A stretch of 64,000 bases of DNA, taken from assembly GCA_947179485.1 (NCBI GenBank), contig OX359247.1, positions 54,719,131 through 54,783,130 on the forward strand, in the 5' to 3' direction. Position numbers and translations under genes: made by a program. The notes beneath the pieces were generated by a model. The model was not told the DNA's origin, ran no database searches, and worked only from the letters and a program-made list of their open reading frames with translations. The stretch is from Allacma fusca (lineage: Eukaryota > Arthropoda > Collembola > Symphypleona > Sminthuridae). Positions 7,300 through 49,759 of the stretch are shown in pieces (position 1 is the stretch's first letter; the number at the start of each line of letters is the position of its first letter).

Positions 7300-7307
7300 A
7301 TTCCTAC

Positions 7308-7709
7308 TAGGGATGCCAATGGTCTGGTCCGGACCATTTATTATGGTCCGTTTTTGGTCTGGTCCGGTCTGATCCAACACTTGGACCAGACCAGATATAA
7401 TTGGTCCAGCTTCAGGACCAGAACAGACCAGACCATAAGGACCATGGTCCAAAAAGTATGCAAAATAAAAAATTATGAGTTAACGAAATCCTGTGGAACG
7501 AATTAAAAATGTCCTTTCTGGTGATACAACAAAAATTTCACTGGATAAAACGTGATTGTTTAAGTACACTCTATGGTTTTCAGGACCATGGTCCGGACCA
7601 TGGTCTTTGGTCTGGTCCGAAAAACTGGACCAGACCAGTGGTCTGGTCTGAGCTTCGGACCAGACCAGTTTCATAAAAACTGGATCAGACCAGACCATTG
7701 GCATCACTA
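7308..7709. mobile_element. Non-autonomous hAT-like element with GGTCTGGTCC array (402 bp)
   Basis: The termini read TAGGGATGCCAATGG on the left and, inverted, TAGTGATGCCAATGG on the right. The perfect 8-bp duplication attcctac lies at 7300-7307 and 7710-7717. The interior consists almost entirely of ggtctggtcc words and their complements, so each half can fold back on itself. No transposase is encoded. The palindrome partner is at 27718-28122. Confidence 0.88.
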
Positions 7710-8290
7710 ATTCCTACATAACGAACAATTTGATAAGACTAAATTATAAACTCGATAAGTTTTTCATATCATATTGAAAGAATACTGCAGCAAATTAAAA
7801 CTTTACAGAAAGGAGTTTATTTCGATTATATTTCCAAATACAATTTAAATATACTCTGATATCATTATTTGATACTCTTTATCTTAAAATCTTCTAAATA
7901 ATTAATCTTTCTAAATCTACTCTTCATTCCCTTGAATGTGGGATATGCCAAATTATCCAAAATATAAAATTGGAAAAAATGCTGAAAAAAATCCTATCTA
8001 CTAATTATCTGCTTTACAAACCCCGGCTTTTTTCCCGGCATTATGGCTTATTATGGTTTAAAAAAGTTGGTGTCGAGTAACTCCAACATGCGGAATTACG
8101 TACGGGGGAAACAACTTTTTTTATTAAACGAACCGGGCTAAACTGATTGCGAGTTATACAAAACATTGGTTGTGGGAAATAGATTCACGGGTACTAGTAC
8201 GCAAAACAATTCGAAAACGATACGGAATGATGTAAGCATATCTAAAAAAACCTCGATGTAATTATTGCGTAACTTCGAATGTGTTTCGAA

Positions 8291-8520
8291 CAGAGATGCG
8301 CAACCACAGTTTCGTTACGTTACGTTACACTATTATGATATTTTTTAAAATTGTCGTTAATTATCACTACATTACTAAATATCGTATGAAAAATTCAGCG
8401 TTACCGTTCCGTTACTACAAGACAACGGTAATACTTAAATCGTTAATTTTCGTTACCATTAAAAAATATAAAATAGCCGTTACTTTTCGTTATCGTTACT
8501 ATTACAGTATTGTCCGCTCG
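8291..8520. mobile_element. Probable truncated hAT-like element with GTTACGTTACCG array
   Basis: It begins CAGAGATGCGCAA, the same end as the element at 47299, and continues with dense gttacgttac and cgttaccgtta words to about 8515. I found no matching right terminus or target duplication, so it is probably truncated. The right palindrome arm carries the mirror copy near 26900-27140. Confidence 0.5.
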
Positions 8521-8992
8521 TTATAAACTAAAATGTCAAACAACTAGTGTTGCCAGACGTACCTGGTATGCAGAAAATGTAGCAAAAGGCAATTTACAGT
8601 TTCTGTGTAGCTCTTGATTCACCTGCAATGTGATCCGCATCCCGACTACCCGGTGTGGTAATCTCAACATTTGTCCATTTTTCAAATTCATTTTTCTCCT
8701 TTTACCAGCAGCAGTATTCTCCATGGTTAGTTCTTATCTACTAAAAACTTCGTTAGAACCAAAACTGAATTCGTAAGCCGATCACACATCGTTTTTTTGT
8801 GAGCAAAAGCGTGTGGAATCTTGAATATGAACATAATGTATGTATTTTGCCTTTGATTTTTATATTCTATATTCTATATTCAATTCCTTGCTTCAAAAGC
8901 ATGTGCAAAGTAAAATGTATGTAAAGATTACGATGGAGCTGTTGCAATTAATCGTGCTTTATGTATCCTAAGTTTTCCAGGATAATCATCTT

Positions 8993-9010
8993 GTTAAATG
9001 CAGCAGAGCT
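8993..9010 (-). promoter_or_regulatory. Distal conserved upstream element of GW3
   Basis: Reverse-strand gctctgctgcatttaaca, 414 bp upstream of the GW3 ATG, flanked by atcagat on its 5' side and gatgattatcc on its 3' side. It matches the copies at GW1, GW6 and GW7. Confidence 0.5.
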
Positions 9011-9336
9011 GAAATGCAATTCATCTGATAAACCTAGTACACAAACAAATATAAAGCAGTGTACATCAAGGTTTAGTACTCTGCCGATTTTACCTTCTGT
9101 TCCTTATTATTAATGAAGTTCTTTCTTGCAATTAGATCAAATGGGTACTTGGAGAAAGTTCCAACATTAACTGCATATACAGCTTACTCTGTAGCAGCTT
9201 CAAGCCTAAAGTTTAGAAGTGACACATGCCGTTCATAAAGGTAGACAGTGAATCCCCAATGATGGAACTCAACATAATCTACATCCACTATAGGGATAAT
9301 TACTTGAGTCAATGTGGGAGCCTTCAGTTCGTTTCG

Positions 9337-9344
9337 TATAAAAA
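9337..9344 (+). promoter_or_regulatory. TATA box of GW3
   Basis: TATAAAAA, 87 bp upstream of the ATG. Confidence 0.7.
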
Positions 9345-9423
9345 GGAGGCAAAGCTTCCCAGAACTATCAAATACCAAATAGCTCTCTAATTGTAAACAA
9401 CTATAATAATCCCTTCATTCAAA

Positions 9424-10130
9424 ATGGCAAATATCTTTGTAAGTGTGACCAGTGTAATACCCAGGATTTCATATTTCTAAAGTTGCTAATTGAATTCAAG
9501 CCCACTTTGCATGCTGCGATTTCTAAGGTTGTAATTAAGTTTATTGTTTTGTTAAATTTGTTTTAGGCTCTCGTCGCAGTCATCGCTTGCTGTGTTGCAG
9601 CAGTTATGTCCGCAACAACAGTTGCTGACAAGAAGGAGACTTTGAAGGTCGCTGAGACACAACACAAGGGATGGGGTTGGGGAAACAAGGGACACGGCGG
9701 AGATGGCTGGGGGTGGGGGCACAAAGAACATGGTGGAGACGGCTGGGGTTGGGGTAAGAAAAACGAAGAGAAACACGGAGGTTGGGGCTGGGGACATGGT
9801 GGAGATGACAAGAAAGGAGGTGATGGTTGGGGTTGGGGACATGGTGGTGACGAAAAGAAAGGTGATGGTTGGGGCTGGGGACATGGTGGCGATGAGAAGA
9901 AAGGTGATGGTTGGGGCTGGGGACATGGAGGTGACGAAAAGAAAGGAGGTGATGGTTGGGGCTGGGGCAAGAGCGGCGGAGATGGATGGGGTTGGGGTAA
10001 GAGTGGCGGAGATGGTTGGGGATGGGGAAAGTCTGGCGGAGATGGTTGGGGATGGGGAAAGTCTGGTGGAGATGGATGGGGAAAGAGTGGAGGAAACGGT
10101 TGGGGTTGGGGTAAAGAAGGTTCCCATTAG
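9424..10130 (+). CDS. GW3: secreted Gly/Trp-rich repeat protein, subtype B
   Basis: Exon 1 is 9424-9438 (MANIF, then gtaagt). The intron is 9439-9566 and exon 2 is 9567-10130, for 192 aa. The signal peptide core is ALVAVIACCVAAVMSA. The linker is DKKETLKVAETQHK. The array has two parts: an N-terminal His- and charge-rich half with units such as GWGWGHGGDEKKGGD, and a C-terminal half of GWGWGKSGGD units, ending GWGWGKEGSH. This two-part array and the VAETQHKGWGWGNKGHG start define subtype B, shared with GW4 and GW6. It lies in tandem 3.2 kb downstream of GW2 on the same strand. Its function is unknown; histidine clusters could bind metal, but that is speculation. Confidence 0.9.
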
Positions 10131-10335
10131 ACGTGTGTAAATGCCTGCGGAAATGATAACGCGTGTTAAAACTTGTTTAAACTTTCAACCTATAAATTAA
10201 CACAAATCTGTCGGTAGCATTTGGTTATCCGAAAGTTTTACCGCGATTACTATTTTTCATTTAAATTGCATGGGTCGTACAGTTCTCATGCATACATTGC
10301 CTGATGATAAAATGTAGCCTGTAACTGTGATGTTT

Positions 10336-10341
10336 AATAAA
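10336..10341 (+). terminator. Polyadenylation signal of GW3
   Basis: AATAAA, 206 bp after the stop codon. Confidence 0.6.
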
Positions 10342-10344
10342 ATG

Positions 10345-11281
10345 GTTTTGGAGTCCTTTAATCAATGGTTCTACAGTAATCATTAATTTACTTAAGAAAG
10401 TCGTTGGTTAAATTTTAAAAGTATTAACTACATTGGGTAACTCATGCTTTTTACACGGGATCTCTAGCACAGGAAAATGGAAAAAGTGCTTACCGGTCCG
10501 AAAGAGTTGCCTTATCCTTCGCGTCCGTTTCTCATTCCTAATCATGCATTACCTCATAGCCGCCTGCCAGGATGTCTGTCCCAAACTGTCCAACCACCAA
10601 ATGAGCATACCCATTATTCTTCAGGTCTGACCGTTGATTAAACGTCAGAACAGATGCTGAAAAATGAACTAGAACCATGATACTTTGTAGATTCATTGTA
10701 ACTTCTTTGTAGTGGTGAGACATTTAGGTTTACGGTTACTTAGGAATCAAAGATTGTCAGGGTATGAGAATTATCCTTAGGATTCATCAAGATGTATAAG
10801 TCAGTTATGTAACCAAGGGTGTCGTCGCACGTAACTCCAGATGTAAAGCACATATGAAGGGTACACATATTGCGACACGGGTAACTTCACGAAATGAGAA
10901 TCCAAAGTGCAATTATCAAAATGCCATAAAATATGAAAGTATGTTTGAAGGGAAGTCGTATTTTCAGTATTCAGTATTTCATGTCTCTCTTACTTCTGAA
11001 CTTTTCTATATAATTTCTCAAGAGCTTTACTAATGAGTCAATCACTCTGAGTCCAAAATCCCAGTTGGCTCTCCTTTGCAGTCGAGCATAAGTGTTACCT
11101 TTTCCTCATCTGAGTTCCAACACGGCATCTTACTATTGGCGTTTCCTTACCTTATGCCATTTCTCAAAACCAATCAAATCCTTATTCTAATTAACAAAGG
11201 TTATATATATCCTTAAAGTCACTGAGACTGGGGTGCATATGTACATACCAGTGCATCTGCAAATTTATAATTTTAGGACTT
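10345..11281. other. Intergenic inner end of the left arm
   Basis: No gene with a supported product. The short ORFs here lack family resemblance. The palindrome homology stops abruptly at the end of this stretch. Confidence 0.4.
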
Positions 11282-11337
11282 TCGAAATAATAATTTATAA
11301 AGTGCATTTAGGAGGCCGCCTAGACTGGCCCAGTGGT

Positions 11338-11640
11338 CGTCACGGGAACAAGTAACACCCACGTACATGGGAACGAGAACGAGTACCGGAACGGGTACGG
11401 GAATAAATATTTTGTTCCCAACCGGTTTGGGGACAGGAACAGGAACACGGATCCTCATTTTGTTCCCGTTCCCGATGGGAACGGGTACAGTCTACGCATA
11501 ATCCCGTTCGCACACCTGTTGGGAACGAGAACGAGTACCAGAAAGGGTACGGGAATAAATATTTTGTTCCCAACCGGTTTGGGGACAGGAACAGGAACAC
11601 GGATCCTCATTTTGTTCCTGTTCAGTTTCACTCTCTTATG
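11338..11640. repeat. GGGAACGGGTACGGG word array with 152-bp direct duplication
   Basis: Words such as gggaacgggtacggg and their complements fill the block. A 152-bp unit starting tgggaacgag at 11368 repeats at 11520. A third partial copy, matching 11458-11520, lies at 12341-12402. It resembles a hAT subterminal array, but termini and target duplication could not be fixed. Confidence 0.6.
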
Positions 11641-12340
11641 CATTTGACTAATAATTTTGACACGGGATATGTACTTCCTTCAGTTTACCCAGCATTTGTT
11701 TTATCCTCCACCTCACCATTCCATGCTCCTTAAACCATTCTCTAAAAATGTTAATGAGTATGCACAGAGTACATCTCCTAACAGCACCGCTACCCTAAGG
11801 TCAAGTTTGCAAATGACACTATGACAGGATTAACTCCTAGTGACCCTTCCCGGTGGAAGTTCTTTATTGGTCAAGATAACACCCTTGTCAGTCTCACAAT
11901 GTAGCTTTGCTTGCTTCAAAACCCAAGCCAAGCAGTTCAACGCCGACAATCAGGGTGAGCTGTACTAAAAAGAGCTGAACATTTACTCTCAGTACCTTTT
12001 TAAGGTTAAGTCACTGGCGTTACTCATGTTGTTAGTCACAGTACTAATTCCTTACCGTTTATTACAAATTACAGTGTGTCTGCAGTGGTACCGGGACGTT
12101 CTCAATTACACCGGACAAATCATTTTTCCCCCAGTTTATTCCTTCTATCCAGTTTTCCTCTTAAGTACAATGTTCTAAGTAATATTATCAGTTCTACTTA
12201 TTATTCTTCATTAAATGACGTTCATACTTATTGAGTCAAATTAAAGTAATATTTTGTTCAAAACCTAAACGTTCTCCAGAAGTCAATTGAAGCTCTCCAT
12301 ATCTTCGTAGTGTCATCTAGCGTAAGACTGCACCGCACAG
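11641..12340. other. Intergenic sequence between two related word blocks
   Basis: No gene is seen. It may be the interior of an element whose arrays are at 11338-11640 and 12341-12420; this is inference from the shared word. Confidence 0.3.
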
Positions 12341-12420
12341 TTCCCGTTCCCGATGGGAACGGGTACAGTCTACGACTAATCCCGTTCGCACACCTGTTGT
12401 TCCCGTTTTCGAGTGGGTAC

Positions 12421-13199
12421 CTTCACCATCTCGTAGAAACACTCAAACTTGATCTTGGAAGACTTGAAAGTATTTATTTGCATATGTAGATAATTCAATT
12501 TGCATTTTCCATTCCATTCTTTTTATCCGGCAGCTTGTACACATGGATCCTGGTCTTAAGTTTAATAACACCGCTTAACGGATTTAATGAAAATAGAGAT
12601 CTAATGTGTTAGCTAAACTTTCTAAAAAAATAATATAAAATATATTCAAATAACTATTATTGGCTTGTGCAATTTCTGCTAAAAGTGGGAAAACAAATGG
12701 AAAAAACCAGTGCCGGTATATATTCTTCAGATACCCTAATCAACACGAATCGGCACATAATCCTTGAAGAATTAAAACATGACATAGTTATTACGCTATT
12801 AGGTAATGTTTAATTCAGTAAAAACGATCAGTCGCCGTAAAACAATGGAAATCATTTTGGAGTATTTACGGATGGAAATGAGAGTTTGCTAGTGTTGCAT
12901 TTTGCAACGAGAGGCATTATCATAGCAGTCCTAGAAATAAGTACAATAAGGTCGCTACGCGTGGAAGATTCACATTTCCAGACTACGATTTATATTATTC
13001 GAGTACAATTTAAACAACTCCATTTTAAACAATCAACACAGTCCAGTTCTGTTAAGGAAATTAGTTTGAGTTTGAAACGTGGACTTACTTTACGTCGAGC
13101 GGAAGAAAGATCACTGCCGATAAACAAATAATTGAGCAAAGCTCAGAGAACTTCGATAAGTCAAGCGATAAGTACATTCGTAAATGTTTAAGGAATTAG
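12421..13199. other. Spacer sequence
   Basis: No confident gene. The open frame at 12886-13131 has no recognised motif but lies directly before gag-like sequence and could be retroelement debris. Confidence 0.3.
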
Positions 13200-13755: not shown

Positions 13756-14985
13756 TGTATTACGAAATGATTAGGCATTTAGAGATAATTTATGATCGTA
13801 TAACCGAATTAACCTTACCAACTAGTGGTTCCTACATTATTATTGTTATTTTAAAGTGATTTTTTATTGTGCTGAGGAATAATCCCTAACTCGACCTGAC
13901 TACCTCAAATCTCCAAGGTACTCCCGGGGTTAGTAGTGTACCAAACAGGAACCGAGTTGGTGAAAACCAAATTTATTTTTGACCATTTAAAAAAACCAAT
14001 CTATCATCCACTTTCCAACCCCCCATCATCTGTCACTCTCTGTCTAAAGTTCCAACGGTTTTCCGGTTTTAAGCTAGTAGGTTTCATCCAAACCCAATTC
14101 CCACCAGTTAAAACTCTCACCATTTTTCAGCGGATCACTCTCCCTTACATTTCTCCAGAACCCTCATCATCTGATACCATTCTTGGTTCTGAAGCATCCT
14201 ATTCCAAATTCAGAAATTTTGGAAACCGACTCTAAAATTACCCACCGTCAACGTAAAATTTTTCCAACTACCCCACTCATTCATATATATTCATACCATC
14301 AGTGCAATCTACTCCTAGATTCTCGTCCGCTATAAACTTTATTTGGACCTTGTGGAAAATCGGTCGTAATCAGAGAGATTAGAAATGTACATTCCACTCT
14401 TGATTGTATTTATATCTTACGGTGTGTATAGTAGTCAGTGTCCATTAATTTATTAGGATTCTGGGCACACTGCAATTAGAGGACGAAATTGTTTAGAAGA
14501 GTGTAACAAGTGTGGACTACACTGTAGCGTCTGGTTCATATGTAATTGGAAGAGCTAACAGGAGGTAATTATATAGAGTGACGAGAGATTTAAGATTTTG
14601 TTGAGGATTGAGACACCGGCTGTTTAATTTCATAGGTCAGTCTCCCTATTCACAATCAATTTCCCTGCGGGGAAAGCGTTACTACATTATAAGCAAATAA
14701 CGAATCCTGGACTAAATACACAAAAGATTTAAATGCGGTGTATAGCACTACAGTAATAATTAATTATCAAATCGAGTTTTTTAAAAATAAACACAAAAGT
14801 TCAACCCCCCTAACACTCAATAGTTTAACTTACCAATTTACCTAGTACAAATAATAAGGTGGTAGTCACCGAAGACCGGTACCCCCACAGCTGAGCAAAA
14901 GGATTTTATAATACAAATTAAAACATCGTAGTCAGTTGCAAATAGCAACAACTACTCTCACTACACCCAATCACAAACATTGATG
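13756..14985. other. Spacer sequence without recognised genes
   Basis: The ORF at 13936-14235 has no family resemblance I can name. It may belong to retroelement debris, because gypsy fragments flank it. Confidence 0.3.
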
Positions 14986-14989
14986 GACA

Positions 14990-15880
14990 CCCTCACGAGG
15001 TATGCGGTCTTCCCTCGCCCTCATCCCTCGCCATCGCCCTCAATTTTGGAGGGATGAGAGCGAGTTTCTATCATAAAAGAAGGGCCCTCATATAATAAGG
15101 GCGAGGCATAGCAAAATGTATGTACTAAAACGAGGGCGATGATGAGTATAAAAAGCTAGTCCTCATCAAGTTGGAACAACAGTATTAAATCCCGCGAGAT
15201 AATTCTCGCATTTCCTATTTGCTGTGCCTTTTTGCCATATGCGAGTCTGAATAATTAGTTCAAGATCTTAAGAATAAACTACAGTTCGGAAGAATTAGCT
15301 AAAGGTCTGAATTATTAAGTGTATGTTTGATGGTCTCAACTTGGTGATACTGAACTAAGGGACTAGATGGGATAACTATTCGAAACCAAATGGAATACAG
15401 TTTTCAAGGGGCAAATAATTGGCTGGGCAACGTTTTGCCGACACGGGACAAATATTTCACTGGACAATTTTTCCAGGGAGCAGGACAGGACAAAGTTTCA
15501 CGTGCTGGTTTCGCACTTCTCACGCCAGTGATGGGTAATTAGTTATACCTTGCTCTCACTTCACGAGGTTAGCAGTTAAGTCTATTGCACTCGCCATAGT
15601 TAAAACCTTCACGATAAGTGACGTTTCTACTTGCCCTGAGACTCGATGGGCGAGGGTGAGTGCATGTTGTTAAAAGTAGACCGTCACGGGCCCGTGATAT
15701 CTAGATTGCATTGCACTGGCAGTAATGCTGTACTTATGGACTCATGAGGCCGGGGTAGAGTACTTATGATTTAGATTAGGCCCTAACGAGTCTGAGGGCG
15801 AGTTCCAGCGTAAACTGTCGTGAGGGTTTGAATGAGACCGAGTGCGACAAGATTTAGTTACATACCTCGTGAGGTGAGGG
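14990..15880. repeat. CTCGCCCTCACGAGG degenerate word array
   Basis: Words such as cctcacgagg, ccctcgccctca and complements gagggcgag recur at 14990-15150, 15540-15670 and 15770-15890 in both orientations, with a unique middle. The layout (two arrays around a core) resembles the hAT-like elements, but I could not locate matching termini with an 8-bp duplication. Confidence 0.5.
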
Positions 15881-15967
15881 TGAGGACTTCTAAAATGCCC
15901 ATTTATGATCACAAATCACTCTCCAGTAGTCATTATTTGAATTTTCCAACGATGTCCCATATCCCAA

Positions 15968-18255: not shown

Positions 18256-18259
18256 CGCG

Positions 18260-27717: not shown

Positions 27718-28122
27718 TAGTGATGCCAATGGTCTGGTCTGATCCAGTTTTTATGAAACTGGTCTGGTCCGAAGCTCAGACCAGACCAATGGTCTGGTCC
27801 AGTTTTTCGGACCAGACCAGACCAAAGACCATGGTCCGGACCATGGTCCTGAAAACCATAGTGTACTTAAACAATCACGTTTTATCCAGTGAAATTTTTG
27901 TTGTATCACCAGAAATGACATTTTTAATTCGTTCCACAGGATTTCGTTAACTCATAATTTTTTATTTTGCATACTTTTTGGACCATGGTCCTTATGGTCT
28001 GGTCTGTTCTGGTCCTGAAGCTGGACCAATTATATCTGGTCTGGTCCAAGTGTTGGATCAGACCGGACCAGACCAAAAACGGACCATAATAAATGGTCCG
28101 GACCAGACCATTGGCATCCCTA
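27718..28122. mobile_element. Second copy of the GGTCTGGTCC hAT-like element
   Basis: The ends TAGTGATGCCAATGG and inverted TAGGGATGCCAATGG are flanked by perfect 8-bp duplications gtaggaat at 27710-27717 and 28123-28130. These are the complement of attcctac around the left-arm copy, so the insertion predates the inverted duplication. Confidence 0.88.
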
Positions 28123-32108: not shown

Positions 32109-34296
32109 TAGAGCTACTTTTGGGATCGGGATACACCCGGGAATTGGGTTCGAGATCGGGAACGGGTTCGAGTTCGGGTGTCTCATTAATGTTCCCAAAT
32201 ACTTTGGGACCAGGTTCAGGAGCATGCTCAGCAGACCCGGGATTTCAGGATCGAGACCGGGTTTGGGAACGGGTTCAAGCTTGATGCAGGTATTTGTGTT
32301 CCCGTCGGGAACCGGGAACATCTTCGTTCCCACACCCGTTACACGCTTCACGTTCCCGGGAACCACGTAACCATCTAGCGGAGAAAAAAATACAAAGCAT
32401 GCACGGTTTCCCTCGTTAAAGTGTTGAGATAATAATTTTACGAGAGCGACTTGGGCCGTTTCGCATATTGTCAGTTGGGATCGCATGTCGCATAGTAGTG
32501 ATTTCCGCCTACTCTAACTTGCAAGATGAAAGTCATTGCAAAACTCATAGTGGGAATCGTTTAAGCAGTCTTCCTGCATCTTTTTCGGCAACGCAGACCA
32601 GACGTTTAGTTTGATCACAATTTTTAATAGTTTCTAAATCTATTGTATCATGGTACGCACGCATAAGTATTGTTAAATCAATAAAAATGTGAAGAAAAAA
32701 ACTGATTTACACCAACTGCGCTGGTCCCGGGAACGAGTCCGGGTTCAAGGGATTCGGGATCGGGATTGGTAGCAAATTTTATCTGATTTCGGGTTCGGGA
32801 CCGGGATCGGGTTTGAGATCAACGGTTCAAGCATATTTAATATCTGGGTTTTTGTGCACCCGATCCCAGTATTTCGGGAACGGGTTCGGCTGTGAGTCCG
32901 AAAATATTGATGACCCGATTTTCGGGATCGGGTTCGGGCAGTGCTCGGCACGGGTATGGGTAATATTCGGGTAAACGGGTATGGGTACGGGTATGGGTAC
33001 TACCCGAGTACGGATTTTGTGTACCCGAACAATTCCGGGTACTACCCGGGTACACTTTGGTCGGCTCAAAATTTCGGGTACGGATACAGGTATGGGTACG
33101 GGTACAAGGATTTCAAAATGGGTATATACCCACCGGGTACGGGTATAATGGTGTCATTTACCCGTACCCGCGACCATTGTACCCGAGTATTTGGATATGT
33201 TGAGATTTGAGACATTTTGATGAATTTTATGAAAATAATGGAACTTCCGTCGGAAAATTCTGTCGGTATTTTTAGTAATTCTGAATACATATAGCTTATT
33301 GTTAATACCCTTTTAACCTTACAACATGCAGTAACTGTATTTCAGACTGTTGCTAAAATATATATTTATATCTATAATATATATTTTTATGGAAACAGGT
33401 TTTAGGAAGAATAATTAATAAACAGACGAGGAATAATATCAAAATAGAAGTGGAGAATAGGATTCAACAAAATTTTATGCAAAACGTCTTCATAATGTAG
33501 TAATTTGTTACTAATTGCATAAATAGTCTGATTGACACGTATGCACATGATACTTCATTAGCCACAATGAATACAATTTAAAAATTAGAGTTCCGATGAG
33601 TTGGATGGCAAGATATTTTTTGTAATTGGTAGTTGATTAGGAAAAGGCGGATATTTGTAACAAGATAATAATGAGTTACATGTACACAGAGCTACTGAGA
33701 TGAGAAAATTAATGTAAAAGGCCGAATAAATCAAGAATTGAAAAATCGAGTTGCCAAGTCCCAAGCCAAAAATGCATGTACATATGGTCTGGGTACTATA
33801 AAATACTTCGCCCATCAGCCCATAAACAATCAAATGGGGATGATTTTACTTCTAATCAAAAACGCTTATAGTTTTCTACTCTTCAATAAAAATATATAAT
33901 GTCAAATACCTCTCTAGCTAGTCAAACTTACCCACTCAGATGTCATACATTATTACATATAACGTACTATATATTACATAAAACAAATCTGGATAAAGTA
34001 CCCGGGTACGAGTACGGGTACGACACTGAGATACCCGAGTATGGGTACAATTTTCGAGTATTTTCGGGTACGGGTACAATACGGGTACAGGTACATGGAT
34101 TGAGATAACATTGCGGGTACGGGTACGAAAAATTTGTACCCGGATACTCGGGTATGGGTACGGATATAGCTACCAGTTATTGAAGTATCCGCACTTCGGG
34201 TACGGATACGGGTACGGGTACCGATTTTTCGTATTTTCGTGCCGAGCACTGGGTTCGGGAATGGGATCAAACTTTTCGTTCCCACAAGTAGCTCTA
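32109..34296. mobile_element. hAT-like element with GGGTTCGGGATCGGG arrays (2188 bp, contains a nested element)
   Basis: The termini read TAGAGCTACTTTTGGGATCG on the left and, inverted, TAGAGCTACTTGTGGGAACG on the right. The perfect 8-bp duplication ggcttgct lies at 32101-32108 and 34297-34304. Subterminal arrays of gggatcggg and gggttcggg words fill 32120-32350 on the left and 32730-32938 plus 34252-34290 on the right, around a short unique core. A second element (32939-34251) has inserted into the right array. Without that insert and one duplication copy it is about 870 bp. No transposase is visible. Confidence 0.9.
32939..34251. mobile_element. Nested hAT-like element with GGGTACGGGTATGGG arrays (1313 bp)
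   Basis: The termini read CAGTGCTCGGCACGG on the left and, inverted, CAGTGCTCGGCACG on the right. The perfect 8-bp duplication ggttcggg, drawn from the host array itself, lies at 32931-32938 and 34252-34259. Arrays of gggtacgggtatggg and complements occupy 32948-33190 and 33998-34225. The core (about 33200-33990) is AT-rich and non-coding. The frames through the arrays read as Tyr/Gly-rich or Arg/Ser-rich and are not genes. Confidence 0.92.
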
Positions 34297-38190: not shown

Positions 38191-38197
38191 GTATAGA

Positions 38198-38203: not shown

Positions 38204-38263
38204 TTCGTTTTAAGCGTTCCTCTCAGTCAGTCAATTTTTATAATAACAATGATACAACAAATT

Positions 38264-38778
38264 TCAACAGTTGTAACCATCTTGCCAGCCCCAACCATGT
38301 CCGCCTTTTTTCCCATGACAGAGAGTCCAACCCCAGCCATTTCCTTCTTTCTTATCATCTCCTCTGTGATCCCAGCCCCAGCCATTTCCTTCCCTCTTTT
38401 CATCCCCACCATGTCCCCAGGCCCAACCATCTCCGCCATTTCCCACACCAATGCTGTAACTCCAACCCCAACCATCCCCGACATTTTTCTCACCAACACT
38501 GTAACTCCAGCCCCAGCCCCCTCCCTTATGATGGGTCTCAGCGGTGTCCAACTCTAAAGTTTCCTTCTTGGGCAATGCCGTTGCGGACATAACAATTGCC
38601 GCAAAGCAAGCAAGGACCGTAACCAGAACCTGCAATAAAAAACACGATGATTTACCACGCTGCACAAGTATCTAGGAGTAAAAATTAGAAATGAGACATA
38701 AAAAGTGTTGTTTTTCCCAGTGTTGTTAAAATGGCATTTCCCTGAAAAAATTGCCAAACTTACCAAAATATGTGTCAT
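38264..38778 (-). CDS. GW7: short divergent Gly/Trp-rich secreted protein
   Basis: Exon 1 is 38764-38778 (MTHIL, then gtaagt). The intron is 38630-38763 and exon 2 is 38264-38629, beginning VLVTVLACFAAIVMSATALPKKETL, for 126 aa. The gene architecture and the KKETL-TAETH linker place it in the family, but the array is degenerate: GWGWSYSVGEKN, GWAWGHGGDEKREG, GWGWDHRGDDKKEG. It ends GHGWGWQDGYNC, with a C-terminal Cys unlike the other members. The units resemble the His/charged half of subtype B and the GWGWSYS unit of GW8, so this may be close to an ancestral, unamplified form. Confidence 0.82.
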
Positions 38779-38893
38779 GTTGAGTGTAGCTTAACTTGAA
38801 TTGGTTTATATAAAATTTGTTCGTGTTGTTTAGTTTGTTTTTATTGTTAAAAGGTTTATTTGAAGATTGATAAATCAGATGAGCTTTCATGTC

Positions 38894-38901
38894 CTTTTAT
38901 A
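38894..38901 (-). promoter_or_regulatory. TATA box of GW7
   Basis: TATAAAAG on the minus strand, 123 bp upstream of the ATG, further than in the other members. Confidence 0.5.
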
Positions 38902-39216
38902 ACAAAATATCCAAACGCTGTGGTGTATTTAAGATCCCTGGGGTAAAATAAATACTTATAATTCGTTCCTTAATTCATTTATGGTCGTACAGATATTATG
39001 TGTTATGATTAATAATTCCAAGATACGGGAAAATGTTTCCTTATGGAGGTGCTTTGGATTGCTCGAAGTCTTAGTTATGTTAGTATACAAACATTTGTGG
39101 TAAAGCTAATTGTAAGAGAGAAGCTTTGAGAATCAAAGTAATTAATAATTACAGGAGTATTTCATGGGCTATTGCAGATGCAAGAGTAAGTGTGAGTAAA
39201 ACTGCAATTAAATACA

Positions 39217-39237
39217 GCCTCCACTGCGTTTAATCAG
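39217..39237 (+). promoter_or_regulatory. Distal conserved upstream element of GW7 (degenerate)
   Basis: gcctccactgcgtttaatca, 439 bp upstream of the ATG; similar to the GW1 and GW6 copies with several changes. Confidence 0.4.
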
Positions 39238-39239
39238 AT

Positions 39240-40850
39240 ATTATTGACGCAACAGTGCAGATTTCATAGTTTTACAAGGCTTAACAAAATAAGAGAATTA
39301 TGTCACATTTATATTATATGAATCAATTAAGTGATAGTGAAAATGCGTTTTAAGGACTTGTTTGATGTAGCTTTTATTTATAGGAACGGCTTTTCAGGGA
39401 AGTAATATTTTGTTAGTTTAATATTGTGTTGTGAGCCGGCGCAGTTGTGAGTTGTGTTTAAAGTCAGCATTTAAATTTCCGGAAGATAAAAATGTATATC
39501 TTTAGTAGTTCTAGCTAAGATCTTAGCGATCATATTATACTGTCGTGTGTTAAGTTTTATTGGCTTTACCGTAATAATATGTTTCGAAATAGTAAGTACA
39601 TCTAACCCACCTGCTACACAGCTGCAAAATATAACAAGCTAAAACACAAGCGTTTTTGCTTTGGATCTTGTGCAGGAATTTTGTAGATTATACCGTACTC
39701 ATTTTCCAACATTATCTCAAAATAAATACATACAGGAAGGTATTTATTTTTAATGTGGTGGAACGCTGTAGGCAGTACTGTAGTTTTACTTTTATATCTA
39801 GGTCATTTTACTTGTACCCACTATGGACCGTATTGCCGAATTTTGTGTCGGTTTTGTTTTAAAATTTAATCGGGGAATGAAATTTACATGCTGTCTATTA
39901 ACTTGGTACTGATCTATAGATTACTTTAAACTTTTAAACAAATATATTATATACGACTGATAATGCACTTATGTATGTGGTTTTCCAAAATAAATATATT
40001 AAATAATAAATAATTAGGCCATTTTTCAGGCATTGGCGACTGAGTGATCAGAGCATTTTGTTCTTAACGGCTGGAATCCGTTTCGATTCCAGTAAAGCTA
40101 TGAGAATTTCCAATACAACAAATCTCCTACTTTGTATTTCCTTAGCAGGAGCAAATACTTGTAATATACTCCTCCAATGGGAGGAATGGACCCAGTACAT
40201 GCGGTTTCCAACCCTCTATCAATCAACCGACGAGAGCCGGTATAAGCTTCTCAATTGTAGCTTCACAAGTCAGAAAAACTGTTTATAACAGGATGACTAA
40301 TGATCAAGTACAGGAATAAAATGCATCCTTGAGGACCTCATTGAACCACTTCTTCAAATCCCGTATATAAAAATATCACAAGTTTTCTAAAATATTTAAA
40401 CAAATGTTTAAATATTATGTTTAAATTTATTCAAGCATAATTAAAGAAATCGTGGACATTCACATTGCAAATGGGAAGAAATTGGGGAAAACGCACAATT
40501 CAATTTTTGATACCCAAAGTAGTATAACTAAAATAGCTGTGCACATTTTCAGAATTACTGTATCATGGGATATCTTTTTGCAAAATATTAGCCCTGACAT
40601 CGATAGTACTAGTTAGCTTTGCAGAATATGTCAATTCTATCTGTGGTATAAAGGTGAGACGATTTATCTTCACTATCTTCCTCCAGAGAAGCTTCCGACG
40701 AGTTTGCATGTTTTCAGCTCGTTCGAAGAGAGCCATTCAACATAACCGGTGACATTCTTAGCCTAGCGTGAAGCCTTTGTGAATGAAATGACCACGGGAG
40801 CAACCGGGGACCAGGAAGTAACAGCCTTTGCTTCTTAATCTATTAGCGTC
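39240..40850. other. Intergenic sequence
   Basis: No supported gene. It includes the tRNA-like Pol III boxes listed separately. Confidence 0.35.
40034..40090 (+). repeat. Possible tRNA-derived SINE head
   Basis: A box A-like tggcgactgag (40034-40044) and a box B-like gtttcgattcc (40080-40090) lie at tRNA-like spacing. The stems do not form a good tRNA, so a SINE head or decayed tRNA is more likely than a functional gene. Confidence 0.25.
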
Positions 40851-40869
40851 AGTGGGAATCGTACTAGAG

Positions 40870-41090
40870 CTTCTGCCGGGGACGGACGTCCCGTCGGGAC
40901 ACTGGACGGACCGGGACAAGATAATTGTCCCCATGTCATATTCGGGACGGGACGGGGACAAAAAAAATTGTCCCCATGTCGTATTCGGGACAGGACGGGG
41001 ACAAAAAAAATTGTCCCCACTATATTCGGGACGGGACGGGGACAAAAAAAGTTGTCCCTATTATATTCGGGACGGGACATGCTTTTTGGT
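40870..41090. repeat. GGGACGGGGACAA word array, first block
   Basis: Repeats of the type attcgggacgggacggggacaa in near-tandem order. No hAT termini were resolved. Confidence 0.6.
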
Positions 41091-41369
41091 CAGTATATAA
41101 CGGGAGGGGACGAGGAAGCATAGCAGAACAAGGCTAACGTTTCAGCTTTAATGCTCATCAGTAAACTATTCTGTGAACACTATTTCACCGAATGTAAGAC
41201 ATTGGATTTTAGGTTGTAGAAAATGAGGCTTGTTGCTCAAAAAGTTAAGGAAGAATCTTGGAGTTACGATTCTATAAATGTGTTTTTTTATGTTTTTGGT
41301 GCAAATATTTTTTGTATGAAATTTTCCTCATGTCCCGATTTTCGATACGAGAATGTCGACAACTGTTTT

Positions 41370-41610
41370 TAGTAATATCGGGGCGGTACAGGAATTTTGT
41401 TCACATGCCCCGATTTTCGGGACCGGGGACAATATTTTTTAAAAATTTTGGGGACGGGGACAAGGTTTTTGTCCCCATGTCCCGACTTTCGGGACGGGAT
41501 CGGGGACAACGTTTTTATACATTTTTGGGGACGGGACGGGGACATGGTTTTTGTCACCGTGTCCCGATTGTCGGGACGGGACTGGGGACAAATATTCGTG
41601 AGCCCGCCAG
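41370..41610. repeat. GGGACGGGGACAA word array, second block
   Basis: Uses the same word as 40870-41090 (cccgattttcgggac, gggacggggac). It ends in an attcgtga / ttcacgaat inverted pair at about 41594-41620. The two blocks may be the arrays of one element; termini not found. Confidence 0.55.
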
Positions 41611-41829
41611 GGTTCACGAATGTTAAATTGTGTGATGACATTCTGTTCAATGCCCGTATGGGCTGGGGCAGGATAATATCCAACAAAAAACTACCTTCTA
41701 CAATAGTGCAGCAGGACCAGGTGTGTTGTAAGAACTTATTTATGATATATATTCAATTAAAATTTGTTATCCTTTTATATAAAACATTCCCAGTTTTCAT
41801 GTTATTTCCTTACAGAAAAGCTTAAAATT

Positions 41830-42800: not shown

Positions 42801-43272
42801 ACGTGGTTATTTACCATCAGAGATGTGTAGTACTTGAAATACTTAAATACAAAATACTATCTAAAATACAAAATACGTATCTTGTATCTTGTATTTCAAA
42901 CCTACTGGGGTCGACCGGGTATTTTGTATCTTGGTATTTACAAAATACGATGCAGGTAAGTATTTAGTATTTTATTTTTAGCCATTAATAGTAAGTATAA
43001 GTATTTAAAATAAGATACTTTATCAAAATACTTAAATACTCAATATTTTGAAATTGCCACAATCGTGCTTATTGTCAAACTATTTCCTACCGTAAGCATT
43101 AAGTACAGGACAAACGTTTTGAGTGATTTACTTACGTCGTACGTACGGGAAATATAAAACGGGATAAATTCACTATCCGCTGCATACTGAGAGAGCATGG
43201 TCCTTCTCGTTAGCATGCTTTAATTATAAATTATACGAAATCGGTAGTTCAGAAAGCATAAGGTATTTCAAA

Positions 43273-43524
43273 ATGTTATTTTCGGTGCGACCTTTACCCG
43301 CAATTCTGGACAAAAATTATTTTCGGGTAATTGAGCTAGACAATGGAAGTGTGGTCGCCCAGTGCATTATTTGTGAAAAGAACCTCGGAGTCAGAGCCAA
43401 AACGGCGAGGGCTAGTAAAACTAGTGGGATAATAAAAGGAGCTTTGTCATCAATGTCTAATTTTTTAAAGCACTTGGTAAGCAAACAATATTTATCTTGG
43501 GGTCGTATTGAATTAGTTTGTTAA
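43273..43524 (+). CDS. BED-type zinc finger ORF, truncated hAT transposase N-terminus
   Basis: 83 residues with a C-x2-C pair in VVAQCIICEKNL, then a Ser/Lys-rich spacer and SNFLKHLV, the C-x2-C...N-x-L-x-HL arrangement of BED fingers that bind DNA in hAT transposases and ZBED proteins. After HLV the frame runs only a few residues to a stop, and a plausible splice donor (ggtaagc) falls exactly there, so this may be the first coding exon of a transposase whose later exons were deleted. It lies inside an element with hAT termini and an 8-bp duplication, which supports the assignment independently. Confidence 0.65.
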   Translation: MLFSVRPLPAILDKNYFRVIELDNGSVVAQCIICEKNLGVRAKTARASKTSGIIKGALSSMSNFLKHLVSKQYLSWGRIELVC

Positions 43525-43684
43525 ATTTAATTAAACTAAATACTAAATTAATTAAATATAATTTAATTAATTAAGACGGACCACCGGAAGGACTAATTTT
43601 TAGTGCGCGTAGCTAGATTGTCGGATGAATGTTCAAAAATCCGTGCACTGTACTGATTTGAGCAAACTTCGTTTGCATGTGCAG

Positions 43685-44028
43685 GAAAGTGAAACTTGTA
43701 TTAAAAGATTTATAGTAAGGTGGGGAAATAGATTTGGATTATAATGGGTAAAGGTCGCATGTCCGTACGGCAATCCGTTGGAAAGATAGCAAATGCAAGA
43801 TTTTCTTAATAATTATATACAGAAAATAATTTTCTGAGGTCAAACGGTTGACCTCAGGTCACCGAAGTTATCAGAAGGCACAACTAGATTTTATGGCCGA
43901 TGTTTTGGTGAAGGTCACAGGTCCCTACGTCATTCCGTTGTAAAGATATGGCTACCACAAGATTTTGTAGTGACGGACGGACGGACGGACGGACGGAATA
44001 CACTCTTGCATAAGAAAGTTTCACTTTC
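43685..44028. mobile_element. Small TIR element nested in the hAT-like element
   Basis: It is bounded by gaaagtgaaact (43685-43696) and its inverse agtttcactttc (44017-44028). It contains two related gtaaaggtc / gtgaaggtcac segments and a gacg tetranucleotide run near 43973-43997. Non-coding. The superfamily is not determined. Confidence 0.5.
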
Positions 44029-44296
44029 TAAAAAGCTGGTATGTTTGAAGTTCTGTTCTCGATTTCCAAAACAATAATTAGATGTATTTCCTGATGTTAA
44101 AGTATTTAAGATAGTATTTTATATTTAAGTATCTTTCGAGCGGTCTTTGATATGTATTTTACTTAAGTATTTTAGAAAACTAGTTGCTGGTATCTTATTT
44201 AGTATTTAGTATTTTGTGTTACGAAAAAAATTAAAAGTATTTGGTATTTTTGAAACAAAAATGAGGTATTTTACACAGCTCTGTTTACCATATAAG

Positions 44297-44530
44297 AGGG
44301 AGTTAGCGCACCCTTTAGATGAGGGAAACTTATAAACTTATACAGCGAAAGTGACGTCACTTTTCGCTACTTTATAAGTTTACGGAATGAACGAAACTTA
44401 TACAGCAGCTCTATACGTTCCATAAGTTATGGAAAGTGATGTCATGATCACGTGCGTAGCGAAAAGTGACGTCACTTTCGCTGTATAAGTTTTATAAGTT
44501 TCCCTCATCTAAAGGGTGCGCTAACTCCCT
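44297..44530. mobile_element. Foldback MITE with 74-bp inverted arms
   Basis: The arms 44297-44369 and 44457-44530 are near-perfect inverted repeats starting agggagttagcgcaccc. The trinucleotide aag flanks both ends, a possible 3-bp target duplication. Each arm contains the palindrome gtgacgtcac, the core of a CREB-type site. Non-coding. The frame at 44466-44705 crosses its edge and is not a gene. Confidence 0.75.
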
Positions 44531-44857: not shown

Positions 44858-47145
44858 CTGTCCGTTTATTTAAAGTTCTGCGCGTTCATAGTTCAATGGC
44901 CTCACACGCCCAAAAGGTGGCATGCCAAGCAAAGCTTACAATCGTCGAGTCGAACCACGCTGTCCTGCATTCCTCGCAGTCCTTAAGTGCACGCACCGCT
45001 CCCAGTTTACCCAAGTGTCTACAGTCCGTTGAAAGTTGAATCCGTATTGTTAGCACTGCTGCCCGCCAAGTTTTAATTCTATTCTATTCTATTCTGTTTA
45101 CAACTAATTCTTGTATATTCAAGTCCTATTATATTCTGCTAAAGGTTTGGCGAGGCTATTCAAGTCTATTCCTATTCCAACAAAATTAGATAATTCCTAT
45201 TCTATTCCTATTCAAATTCTATTCATCAGCAATTAAAAACCGTGCGCTGAAAACTAGTGGATAAAACGCGCTGTATAAATATAACTACATTTTCTTTCAC
45301 AATTCCAATTTCCAGGTCCTTGAATTATAACTTGCTATTGACAATGATAATAAAATAACTGATATTTACCAAATTTACGAGCCACTTCCAGGCAGAAGAG
45401 AATTAAACGGGCGTATAAATAACTACTTGTACTTAACAATTGGCAGTTAACAGGCCTGAATTAATACAGTAATGCCTACCCTCAAAATATATTTCTAGCA
45501 TCAGGGTGGCGCCAGCCCCTTAGTAACAAACCCTTGTCTGTACGTCCGTGCGGTATCTCAAAAACCGCTGCACGGATTTCAATGAAATTTATATTATAAT
45601 TTTTTGAAAGAAATTCTGAAATTTAAAAAAAACTCAAAATTCGTCCTACTTCGCGGTAAGGGAGCGTCTACGAATTACGTCAGCTCGATAGTGGGTCCAA
45701 CATTTAGTTGAAGTCTGACACGCAGGTGGATGGGTGCTGTATACGAGCGAATGACATTATTACTGTCATCACTCATCAGCCTCATTTTATTACAAGGAGA
45801 GAATACGCACAAAAAATAAAATTGTATGGGATGGGATGACACCTCGAGTGTACAAATTAAATCTCTTTATGAAGTCGCATGTTTTCTCTGCTCGAAAATG
45901 TAGTTTCGCATATATTCTACAGTTCACTTGATTTTCGAGTGATTCAAGGAACGGCAATAAATGGCAACTTCTATCATTCTATGATTAGCATCAATGCCAT
46001 AATAGAATCAATGCCAGATGTATTAATCGATGCTAGTGCCTGTCAGTAAGCAAACATTTTATGTAAGAATCAAGATAACGCATTAAAATGTCAAGCGCAA
46101 AAAACGATGGTGGATATCAGTGGCAAGTACTTCGTAAACTATGGGAAGAAGCTAATGTTTACAAAAAAGGATGAGTAGTTTTAAGTTTTTATTGATTATT
46201 GTAATCCTCTCATCAGTGCATCTCAAAGATGATCTACAAAGATTAACAACGCGACGGGAAAAACAGCGACATGTCCATTGTATAAGTTATTACGAATAAT
46301 AGTAACAATAATTCCTGACCACCTGACCCAGGACAAATCCAAACAGCAACGTATACAATTCCGTTCAGTAAACTTGAGTTCGGATTTTAGAATGTCTTGT
46401 TATGTTTAATTACACATTAAGTACTTCCTTCAGACTCGTCTGATTTTAATATACGAATCAATTCACAGCTAAATTCGCTACTTTTAAATTTTGGGGCATT
46501 GTTCAATCGTAGCGTGTAAAGGTATGTGATGACATTTAGCAGGGTGTGTGGGTCCAAGTATCACTAAATGACCATATATGATTTGAGGGTGAGTGATTGG
46601 GTAATTAATGCATTTTGTGCTGATGTAATATGTAGACGCTCCCTAAGTGACGGCACCCTACTCGCATTATCGCGTATCGATGATTTTTACACATGTAATC
46701 AAAGGGCTTTGGTTATTTTTTTTGTTTATGACATTCTCAGATGCTCAGATTTGAATAAGAATTTCACTGTTTTTACTATTCAATTCTAATCTTGGCATCA
46801 GGTGCATGTTCTATTCTATTCTAGTCTGGGAGTTTCAAAAATGGAGCTATTCAATTCTATTCAATTTATTTCTGTATAAATTTCGGCAATTCTATTCAAA
46901 TTCCTATTTTCCTATTCAAGTCGGAATAGAATAGGGCAGCAGTGATTGTTAGCGAGCACTACCTGTCCGTGTATTTAAAGCTCCGCGCGCTAATCTTAAA
47001 ATAAGCGCGCACAATTTGATTCGTAAACCGACTAGATTTTAATGTCTACACTCATACTACCACCACTCCAAGTAATTGTACCTGTGAAGCAACAGGATTT
47101 TACTAGTCCTTTCTTAATATTGAGCTTTACCTGTCCGTTGAATTA
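44858..47145. repeat. Dispersed-tandem CTGTCCG-TTTAAAG repeat split by a transposon
   Basis: Related segments start at 44858 (ctgtccgtttatttaaag), 46963 (ctgtccgtgtatttaaag) and 47131 (ctgtccgttgaattaaac), each followed by a GC-richer gcgcg or cgcgg stretch. Removing the 1891-bp element inserted at 45054 brings the first two to about 200 bp apart, close to the 168-bp spacing of the others. Confidence 0.45.
45054..46944. mobile_element. hAT-like element with CTATTCTATTC arrays (1891 bp)
   Basis: The termini read CACTGCTGCCC on the left and, inverted, CACTGCTGCCC on the right. The perfect 8-bp duplication attgttag lies at 45046-45053 and 46945-46952. Arrays of ctattctattc and attcaaattctatt words lie at 45070-45235 and 46805-46935. 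The 1.5-kb core has no transposase-like ORF. Within it 45500-45620 resembles a common insect repeat with cgtccgtgcggtatctc, perhaps another small insertion. The first bases (CACTG) deviate from the usual hAT YARNG start. Confidence 0.88.
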
Positions 47146-47298
47146 AACTTTCGCGGCCTTGGCTTTACAATTCAAACCTTCGCGGCTCATTTCACTATAT
47201 AGCCAAGCAAGTCTGTGGCCGAGAAGCACAGTGGGCTGAAACTCTGTCGCAGAGGAGAGCTTTGTCAGCAGCTCGCTCAGCTCGCTGTGCTTCTCGGC

Positions 47299-48244
47299 CA
47301 GAGATGCGCAGCCTTCGAAGGCTAGCCTTCCAAGAAGGCTTCCTTGAAGGCGGAAAGGTAACTTTCTTAACGTTGCAGAAGGAATGGAAGGATGTGGATA
47401 TTTTTTTCTGAAGGCTGAAGGAAGCCTTCACAAAAACTATCAGTGAAGGATTGTAAAGGAAGGGCTCCTAAATATTGGCCCTCTAAGGCCGTGAAGGCTT
47501 CGAGGTAATGATAGGTAAACTCCCAGTTCATCACCCCCACTCCCGATCAGTCCCAGAAGGGCTGAGATACACTCAGTCCACTCAGTCTTGCTTATTATAG
47601 TGTGAGTTCAACTCAGTCTCAGCCCCAATAAACTCCTTGGTCAAACTCCCACTCAGTCCCCAAGGATACAAAATACCGCTAATTTCCGTCCTTGGGCTTT
47701 AATATATGGCGCTAAAACTTTAAAAACGCTTATTATTGTTTGCGCATCAGTCCCGCTCAGTCCATGCACTTGAATTAGTTCAATCCTTCAGTCCCACTCG
47801 CTCTCAGTCCTAACCGTTTTCATACATATCAGTCCCACTCTCACTCCACTCCCACTCCACTCCCTGTTTATCCACTCAGTCCCGAGAGATACAATCACTT
47901 TTCCCTAACATTACTTCGAGGTACACGAAATATCTATAACGTGAAAGCATAGCATATGCAACGACGTTTAGCTGCCAGTGCACAAATACAGCCAATTCGT
48001 GAACTCACAACTGACAATGTGTGCCCGCTCTCTTCACTGCACTGAATCCTGCTGGGGCAAAACGTTTTTAAGCGGGTTGTAGTTTAAAATTGAAGGAAGT
48101 CTATTTTTAGAAGAAGGCTGAAGGCCAAAATGAGTGTATGTATTTTGGAAGGAAGGGTGAAGGAAGGCAGACATGTTGAAGGGGAAATTTGTACTGAATT
48201 TTTGCCTTCGAAGGCTTGAAGGCTATTTCCTTTGCGCATCTCTG
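47299..48244. mobile_element. hAT-like element with GAAGGCTT arrays (946 bp, contains a nested element)
   Basis: The termini read CAGAGATGCGCA on the left and, inverted, CAGAGATGCGCA on the right. The perfect 8-bp duplication ttctcggc lies at 47291-47298 and 48245-48252. Arrays of gaaggcttcc and gaaggctgaagg words occupy 47310-47500 and 48090-48230. The termini match the left end at 8291, though the array word there is different. Non-coding. Confidence 0.92.
47506..47913. mobile_element. Nested hAT-like element with CAGTCCCACTC array (408 bp)
   Basis: The termini read TAATGATAGGTAAA on the left and, inverted, TAATGTTAGGGAAA on the right. The perfect 8-bp duplication cttcgagg, taken from the host gaaggcttc array, lies at 47498-47505 and 47914-47921. 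The interior is dominated by cactcagtcccactc words. Non-coding. Confidence 0.85.
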
Positions 48245-48259
48245 TTCTCGGCTATATAC

Positions 48260-49240
48260 CAACTGCTTGCGGCCTACTGGAAGCTCGCAATATTAGGCAA
48301 TTTTATATATTCTTTTAAAAGCTCTAATCATAATTATTATAAACATTACATAAATCATCAAATTTGGATTAAATTAAGTCTGGCAGTGAGAAAAACTACG
48401 TTCGGATACACCACTGAAGAATTTGATAAGAGAATTTTAATGACTGAACTTTGTACACATTAGTGTGGGGTTGTTATTAGGAAACCGCAAATGGAATTGA
48501 AAGTACTTATTGCAACAGTTTTTATATTTAACGTCAGATAAATTCTTAGAATTTATATTGCTGAAGTTATTTGCTCACTACTCTTTAATTACAAGCCTTA
48601 ATATAGATACATTTGATTTTTATATCCCCTAAAAATATCATTAGGAAGTAAGGATTGATTTGTAGGACCCATGGACTTTAGTAACTATTGCAAGTGAAAA
48701 GTGTTGCGCTAATATGAATTCCTTTCATTTTTCCTGTTTTAAATAATCAGTGCGTCCAGTGTCTGAGGCTTCAGTTACATTATTACGGTACAAATGAGCT
48801 ATATACAAGTTATAATAACATACAAAATCATATTTGATCCGCACGTTGTGCTGATCCACTAAGGGGTAAAGCACCATACAGTGATGCAACAGCAAGATTT
48901 AATAACAATGTTGGTATTAAATTGATCAAGCGATTAGTTAAATTCCACCTGCATAGCCAAATATTGAGTTTGGGAGAGAACTTTAGTGGGCCGGTAGCCG
49001 TTGTCCCATAATTTTTTGATGATGAATTGCCAGCTACCTATGTATATGAAACTAATTGTTAGTCTTACAGTTAATAGTTCACACGTCTTATATGAGTTTA
49101 CTTTGCCCGGCGAAACGGGATATTAATATTAAGCCTTCTCGACAGGCCTTGATATGGGATATATAGGCATTTACGGTTTTGTGTATACTCTCACAATTCT
49201 CAAGTAATTGCCCCTGTGCGAAGCACAGGGCTTTTACTAG
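48260..49240. other. Intergenic sequence
   Basis: No supported gene or element. Confidence 0.35.
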
Positions 49241-49251
49241 TATATTATAAC

Positions 49252-49746
49252 TAGTGTTTCTGAACTGTACCAAAACATGGACTCGACCCGACTCGTTTTC
49301 CCGAACCGAAAAAAATCCCAATTCTGTTCCCAAAACCGGAACCGATATTTTCGAGTCCGGGACATTTTTGGCTTCCCGGAACCGATCCGGAAAATAAAAG
49401 CGGTTCCCGAACCGGTTACGGTTCCTTTCCGAACCGACAGAAAATGTATATGATTTATTTTTATGGAAGCCAAAATTGTGTTGCCTTTTCAAATGATAGT
49501 TAAAAAATGCTGGCCAAATGCAAGTGTTGCGTTTTCATCCAAAACGGCAGCTTTAATAAACCCTTCCCGAAAACTTTTGGTTTTGATTGTTGTACCCGAA
49601 ACCGGACCGAAATTTGACGGTTCATAAACCGATGACCCGAAACCGGACCGAAATGTAACGGTTCTTTAAATCGTTGACCCGAAACCGTACCGGAACCGAA
49701 ACCGAACCGGAACCTCGGGAATTCCCGATCCCGAACAGAAACACTA
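49252..49746. mobile_element. Probable hAT-like element with GGTTCCGAACCG arrays (about 495 bp)
   Basis: The ends read TAGTGTTTCTG on the left and, inverted, TAGTGTTTCTG on the right. The flank attataac (49244-49251) recurs at 49750-49757, but three extra bases (att) separate it from the right terminus, so the duplication is imperfectly placed. Words such as cccgaaccgg, aaaccggaccg and ggttcccgaacc make up the arrays around a short unique core. Confidence 0.7.
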
Positions 49747-49759
49747 ATTATTATAACGA

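Follow-up and report, generated by a model that had tools for sequence, protein, structure and literature searches.

Short-word subterminal arrays in non-autonomous hAT elements of Allacma fusca and their probable inheritance with the transposase

Recognition of short words repeated beneath the transposon ends has been described for several hAT elements, mostly studied one at a time. In maize, cooperative binding of the Ac transposase to AAACGG repeats has been described; each end must be present over about 200 bp, and the hexamers are held to be the most likely source of specificity (PMC3260210). Herves, a hAT element of Anopheles, carries several copies of the word CGATTCAT and its variants at both ends, and these are sufficient for binding (PMC3143072). 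The Hermes transposase is oligomeric, and its BED fingers bind short subterminal repeats near the tips (PMC10368747). Among the CGGBP-type hATs, related BED proteins bind different motifs, and the motifs of four hAT proteins match their own subterminal regions (PMC8097297). From the parts of these four reports that are cited here, the principle of subterminal-word recognition is already known. Here, we describe a swarm of hAT-like elements with such word arrays in a stretch of 64,000 nucleotides (hereafter the window; contig OX359247.1, positions 54,719,131 to 54,783,130), which belongs to chromosome 3 of the globular springtail Allacma fusca according to the cited part of PMC10427803, together with the hAT transposase loci of the same genome.

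As in Ac and its Ds derivatives, a word is present in many copies at the ends of the elements and short non-autonomous forms comparable to Ds1 occur; the cited part of that work, however, deals with one word and one family (PMC3260210), whereas about 20 families with different words were found here in one genome. Herves is a single element with measured binding, whereas the present arrays are known from sequence alone. Hermes and Tol2 resemble the present elements in their subterminal repeats, and their combination of BED and hAT dimer domains recurs at one A. fusca locus (L060), the protein of which is most similar to Hermes chains within the dimerisation region; the words described here are longer and fill ~250 bp. 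For the CGGBP-type hATs and their domesticated relatives, motifs were measured across many species, whereas here many families and their miniature inverted-repeat transposable elements (MITEs) were read, as sequence only, in one genome. What is new is the hAT families themselves and the diversity of words within one genome. Among the titles and abstract openings listed from open-licence papers, none described a genome with numerous hAT families, each with a separate word, and the relation of these words to transposase descent, which is not proof of absence. We consider it probable that the elements of the window are non-autonomous hATs whose family words are inherited with the transposase and form largely separate recognition codes.

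The window was scanned for exact 8-bp duplications around 12-bp inverted termini with up to three mismatches and a Y-A start, which is the label of hAT terminal inverted repeats. Eleven duplication/terminus pairs were found, whereas ten Markov-resampled sequences yielded 0.5 on average. Eight of these pairs carried subterminal word arrays (A, its copy and B to G), and the duplications of all eight were identical on recheck. The copy of A, at 27718..28122 on the reverse strand, was rejected as an independent insertion, since it sits in an inverted duplication and its 8-bp duplication (GTAGGAAT) is the reverse complement of that of A (ATTCCTAC); it goes back to the same insertion event. The inverted segmental duplication spans ~6.8 kb (4407-11281 against 24138-30933, the latter read from 30933 to 24138) at 97% identity and carries elements A and K. 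Seven independent insertions (A to G), each with matching termini, a perfect 8-bp duplication and its own word array, were counted, and the initial annotation, which had claimed at least seven insertions with matching terminal inverted repeats and perfect 8-bp duplications, is borne out. Its degenerate subterminal arrays of one short word, with the word differing between elements, were also seen in A to G. The pairs at 14978-15907 and 38144-40398 were without an array in the array scan, and the pair at 38900-41769 has AT-rich termini and encloses the array locus I; these three may be chance matches.

Element A (7308..7709, forward strand), a non-autonomous hAT (MITE) of 402 bp, was recognised by the duplication scan, the array scan and its genome copies; its tips are TAGGGATGCCAATGG and TAGTGATGCCAATGG, and its word GGTCTGGTCC occurs in both orientations. 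Element B (32109..34296; duplication GGCTTGCT, tips TAGAGCTACTTKTGGG, word family GGTTCGGGA / GGGAACGGG) encloses element C (32939..34251; duplication GGTTCGGG, tips CAGTGCTCGGCACG, word GGGTACGGGTA), both on window evidence. There are 29 CGGGTA in the two 250-bp ends of C, and the duplication of C resembles the word of its host. Element D (42818..44283, forward strand; duplication TTTACCAT, tips CAGAGATGTGTA / CAGAGCTGTGTA, word GTATTT) contains a BED zinc-finger stretch at 43315..43485 on the forward strand (zf-BED 21.4 bits, cut-off 20.6). It also encloses an insertion of ~390 bp at about 43640-44029, which contains a GACG run, has AAAAA at each edge and is absent from the other scored D copies except for one 67-bp match to its start; a palindromic foldback element (44298-44529; GGGAGTTAGCGCACCC...) lies a few bases past the end of D. 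Element E (45054..46944) has the duplication ATTGTTAG, the tips CACTGCTGCCC and the word CTATTC. Element F (47299..48244; duplication TTCTCGGC, tips CAGAGATGCGCA, word GAAGGCTT) is the outer element of a second nested pair, within which G (47506..47913; duplication CTTCGAGG, tips TAATGATAGG / TAATGTTAGG, word CAGTCC/CCACTC) shows weaker termini (10/12 matching). D, E and F were recognised in genome copies as well.

Element H (49252..49746) has matching tips (TAGTGTTTCTG) and the word GAACCG/CCGAAA; a perfect 8-bp duplication was sought at H and its flanks were found to differ at 2 of 8 positions. Of K, one end was found (8291..8560, forward strand, inner limit approximate), with a tip identical to that of F (CAGAGATGCGCA) and a different word, CGTTAC; the tip of its duplicate lies at 27135. 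The array loci I (GGGACGGGGACAA; 40869..41620) and J (GGGAACGGG; 11330..12440) have approximate limits. K, I and J lack two recognised tips, K having one and I and J none.

The arrays fill the outer 200-250 bp at both ends of elements A to H. The word occurs in both orientations in most of them, and mostly in one orientation per end in E and G. When the window was scanned for any 6-mer occurring at least seven times in 250 bp, 27 stretches were obtained, which we sorted by our own assignment into gene-type repeats and elements. Eight are gene-type repeats rich in Gly/Trp or Gly, 11 fall within two-tip elements, two in the one-tip element (K and its duplicate), and six are tipless (J, I twice and three AT-rich stretches). 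The proposal that such arrays make up the cryptic simple sequence of the genome is thus supported in part: of the 19 non-gene-type arrays of the window, 13 belong to elements with one or two recognised tips. Tandem arrays with 41-bp units are present at I and H.

Genome-wide copies were examined for families A, D, E and F, while B, C and H were seen in the window only and G was approached through its empty site. Most of the fetched copies were among the highest-scoring candidates, a choice that favours young copies. For A, 1232 first-look candidates were obtained, of which 40 were scored, at 90-100% identity. Both tips were present in 20/20 fetched copies and a perfect 8-bp duplication in 19/20; three of the copies have a common flank, so that 17 of 18 distinct sites bear a perfect duplication. 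Lengths were 402-407 bp in 17 of the 20 copies and 395-397 bp in the other three. Among 574 first-look candidates for F, 12 copies were fetched, all 558-559 bp long, and ten had a perfect duplication; of the two exceptions, one has a damaged tip and one lacks a duplication. Perfect duplications were found in 10/10 fetched copies of E and in 6/8 of D, the other two having one mismatch. In total, both tips together with a perfect 8-bp duplication were found in 45 of the 50 fetched, mostly high-scoring copies of these four families. All 12 fetched F copies were uninterrupted at the position of G. A and F are short, uniform and multi-copy and lack a transposase of their own, as MITEs do.

Two of the window elements were matched to a transposase locus by one end each. 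The right end of F is 74% identical over 189 bp to the hAT locus L053, including tip and word (GAAGGC), and K (8291) is 80% identical over its first 144 bp to the hAT locus L050, which has the word CGTTAC; at both loci the dimer domain goes with the shared tip and word. L053 and L050 have identical 12-bp tips, and their word similarity is 0.01. The first 15 bp of one tip of E equal the tip of the hAT locus L112, whose word CTAGTC differs from CTATTC; in the 3' part, L103 matches L112 at 98.7% identity. A hAT locus with a dimer domain that shares both terminus and word was found for F and K, at one end each, and for none of A, B, C, D, E, G and H among the 70 loci read. L033 was rejected as sharing the tip of H, its own tip reading CAGTGATGCTCA, and L085, considered as a tip swap on the word of A, proved to be related to A but diverged, at 77% over 68 bp. 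The BED frame of D is intact in the window copy; among eight other copies it is open in L143 and, with a deletion, in L146, and broken in six, so that there is no case for a maintained repressor. The hAT identity of the window elements is supported by the 8-bp duplications, the tips, the hAT relatives of F and K and the BED exon in D.

A Pfam search for the hAT dimer domain yielded 860 candidates, of which 150 were scored, all of them above the cut-off. The 70 loci read form 44 clusters at 85% identity. Within 1.13 kb past the dimer domain, a 6-mer occurring at least seven times in 250 bp was found at 38/70 loci and in 0/210 Markov controls; by cluster, 26/44 reach seven copies. In the first 30 loci, such an array was present on the 3' side in 16 and on the largely coding 5' side in five. 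In nine families, two or more copies can be aligned until about a dozen bases or less from a tip located just beyond the array, past which they diverge. Of six 5-kb loci, three (L061, L062 and L063) have termini and duplications at both ends and dimer domains, and a BED finger was found at L059 and L060. Minisatellites lie beside some hATs (L051, L096 and L107). Upstream of one transposase, at L064, the word ATAACG (as in L061) adjoins CAGGTA (as in L118) at 3101-3500 and 3951-4200, which suggests nested elements. In the near-identical loci L039, L040 and L041, a C-type tip with its array lies upstream of the dimer domain, at a distance of 630 bp, and faces away from it (600-870 or 2362-2600); a C element nested in the host was probably copied with it.

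Covariation between word and transposase was analysed in 21 transposase families with a readable 3' tip, mostly at the 3' end only, by comparing the 5-mer content of the 258 bp immediately internal to the tip (228 bp in L061) with dimer-domain identity. Tips were read from the copy boundary in nine families (L031, L037, L042, L046, L054, L088, L112, L113 and L114; that of L054 reads CCATACTTGC), from duplications in two (L061, and L052 via L062/L063), from likeness to a verified tip in five (L036, L050, L053, L094 and L099) and from resemblance only in five (L030, L033, L035, L117 and L118). The choice of the 21 was ours and was made after the sequences had been seen. Loci with an array beyond the tip, nested or minisatellite-like (L038, L043, L051, L085, L092, L096, L098, L100, L107 and L110) or with an unreadable tip or weak array (L047, L105, L108, L109 and L121) were left out, as were array-less clusters; thin arrays remain among the 21, the commonest 6-mer reaching three copies in L030 and five in L037, L042 and L061.

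Word similarity was correlated with transposase relatedness across the 21 families (r = 0.46, p = 1e-4 by permutation), and the result was similar with 4- and 6-mers and in the 16 better-validated families. An uncurated test (29 clusters, r = 0.385, 0/5000 permutations) is superseded by the curated test of 21 families and those of 16 and 11. The tips covary with the proteins (r = 0.53) and with the words (r = 0.30); at 40-50% dimer identity, the tips have a mean identity of 57% and the words are unrelated (0.04). Graded words were seen in one clade, namely CGGATA (L052 and L094), CGGATC (L099) and AACCGA (L114), with the tips TAAGGTTCT and TAAGCATGAG. The words of L050 and L061, two distant families, are alike (0.48). 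The pairing of transposase and array proposed in the initial annotation is supported by this 3'-end covariation and by the tip and word sharing of F with L053 and of K with L050.

These results can be brought together in a model in which MITEs and internally deleted copies would be mobilised in trans by a large and diverse set of hAT transposases of the same genome. Recognition may have two layers: a short terminal inverted repeat, where the element would be cut and which is partly common between families, and ~250 bp of subterminal DNA in which one word recurs, from several up to about 15 times and usually in both orientations. By analogy with the known systems, the BED fingers of a transposase multimer would probably bind the arrays cooperatively, and a MITE with the right word and tip could then be moved in trans. 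We infer that the transposase binds at the words and that the codes function separately. The word would be inherited with its transposase, drift among close relatives and be unrelated between distant ones, and for this reason the families would carry largely separate codes. Conversion between repeats, slippage and selection for matching are candidate routes by which the word of a whole array might change. A bolder version, about which we are somewhat more doubtful than convinced, holds that in dozens of hAT lineages transposase and word have evolved jointly into address codes that exclude one another, with the words replaced array-wide while tip and catalytic frame stayed recognisable; the genome would then hold a natural series of BED codes, perhaps driven by escape from cross-mobilisation.

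Several results weigh against inheritance of separate, functional codes. The covariation is carried by pairs above ~50% identity; below 60% it falls to r = 0.22 (p = 0.006) and below 50% to r of about 0, and common descent therefore explains much of it. The nearest protein relative is the best word match in only 4/21 families. The BED exons of L031, L033 and L050, which belong to one clade, are 44-49% identical, which is not below the rest (33-53%). Seven of the window elements named above are without a partner in both tip and word, and 18/44 hAT clusters are without an array of seven copies. When eight flanks of A loci were taken as genomic background, 1/8 pieces of 1.13 kb reached seven copies, compared with 26/44 hAT clusters (Fisher 0.019), but the difference was lost at a threshold of at least eight (p = 0.18) and with 1.5-kb pieces, of which 3/8 reached seven (p = 0.23). 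Enrichment of arrays over the genomic background was thus not established with these eight pieces and 44 clusters, and the array is tied to the gene by anatomy. In the cited parts of the earlier reports, some Ds1 elements without hexamers still move (PMC3260210), and Hermes BED motifs beyond the first 50 bp are dispensable, with ~70% of activity kept, although ~220 bp of each end is nonetheless required (PMC10368747). The Hermes result and the weaker contrast with the genomic background weaken the proposed reading.

The alternative that survives best, which we nevertheless regard as unlikely, is that the arrays are by-products of slippage or gene conversion without a role in recognition, and that words follow transposases by co-inheritance only. 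It would account for the tandem arrays at I and H, for the minisatellites beside three of the hAT loci and for the loss of covariation below ~50% identity, and the dispensable inner motifs of Hermes fit it as well (PMC10368747, in the part cited). The arrays, however, occupy the outer 250 bp at both ends and, E and G excepted, mostly run in both orientations, and such words are bound by known hAT transposases in the cited parts of PMC3143072 and PMC3260210. As a control, the 3' sequence between gene and array was analysed in the same way. In the 11 better-validated families with enough of this sequence, the array gave r = 0.60 and the non-array sequence r = 0.005, which argues against by-products; in 16 of all 21 families the control reached r = 0.21 (p = 0.047) against 0.48 for the array, which counts against separate codes.

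Slightly less probable is a role of conflict, which would add to the inheritance of words with transposases rather than exclude it: autonomous elements would switch their word and so escape their own MITEs or each other. Identical or nearly identical tips with unrelated words (L053 and L050; E and L112) and the abundance of MITEs, with the candidate numbers given above for A and F, are in line with it, but drift accounts equally well for the pattern and no excess of BED change was seen in the one clade tested. A different superfamily that also makes 8-bp duplications, with hAT genes merely lying nearby, is a very improbable source of some of the window elements: a partner in both tip and word was not found for A, B, C, E, G and H among the 70 loci, but F, K and D are tied to hAT through tip and word or the BED exon, and 15 bp of one E tip are those of the hAT locus L112.

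Besides the elements, the window holds a family of glycine/tryptophan-repeat genes of the GWGWGKSGGDG type, encoding secreted-looking proteins, on both strands (2284-2860, 5639-6138, 9557-10130, 25300-25881, 29279-29778, 35306-35770, 38264-38671, 50642-51660 and 55952-57025). Two of the translated proteins were compared with Pfam, and no family was matched at E 1. Tandem arrays with 156-bp and 117-bp units lie at 60792-61580 and 58098-58693, respectively.

In A. fusca, one and the same genome houses many hAT families with identifiable transposases and attached MITEs, and the words of these families are legible in the sequence. Such paired data on proteins and putative sites may bear on how BED fingers choose their DNA, on the rate at which codes turn over and on whether words keep families apart. 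Part of the cryptic simple sequence of the genome would be explained as transposon ends, and a single genome would offer a natural test of the divergence of recognition codes.

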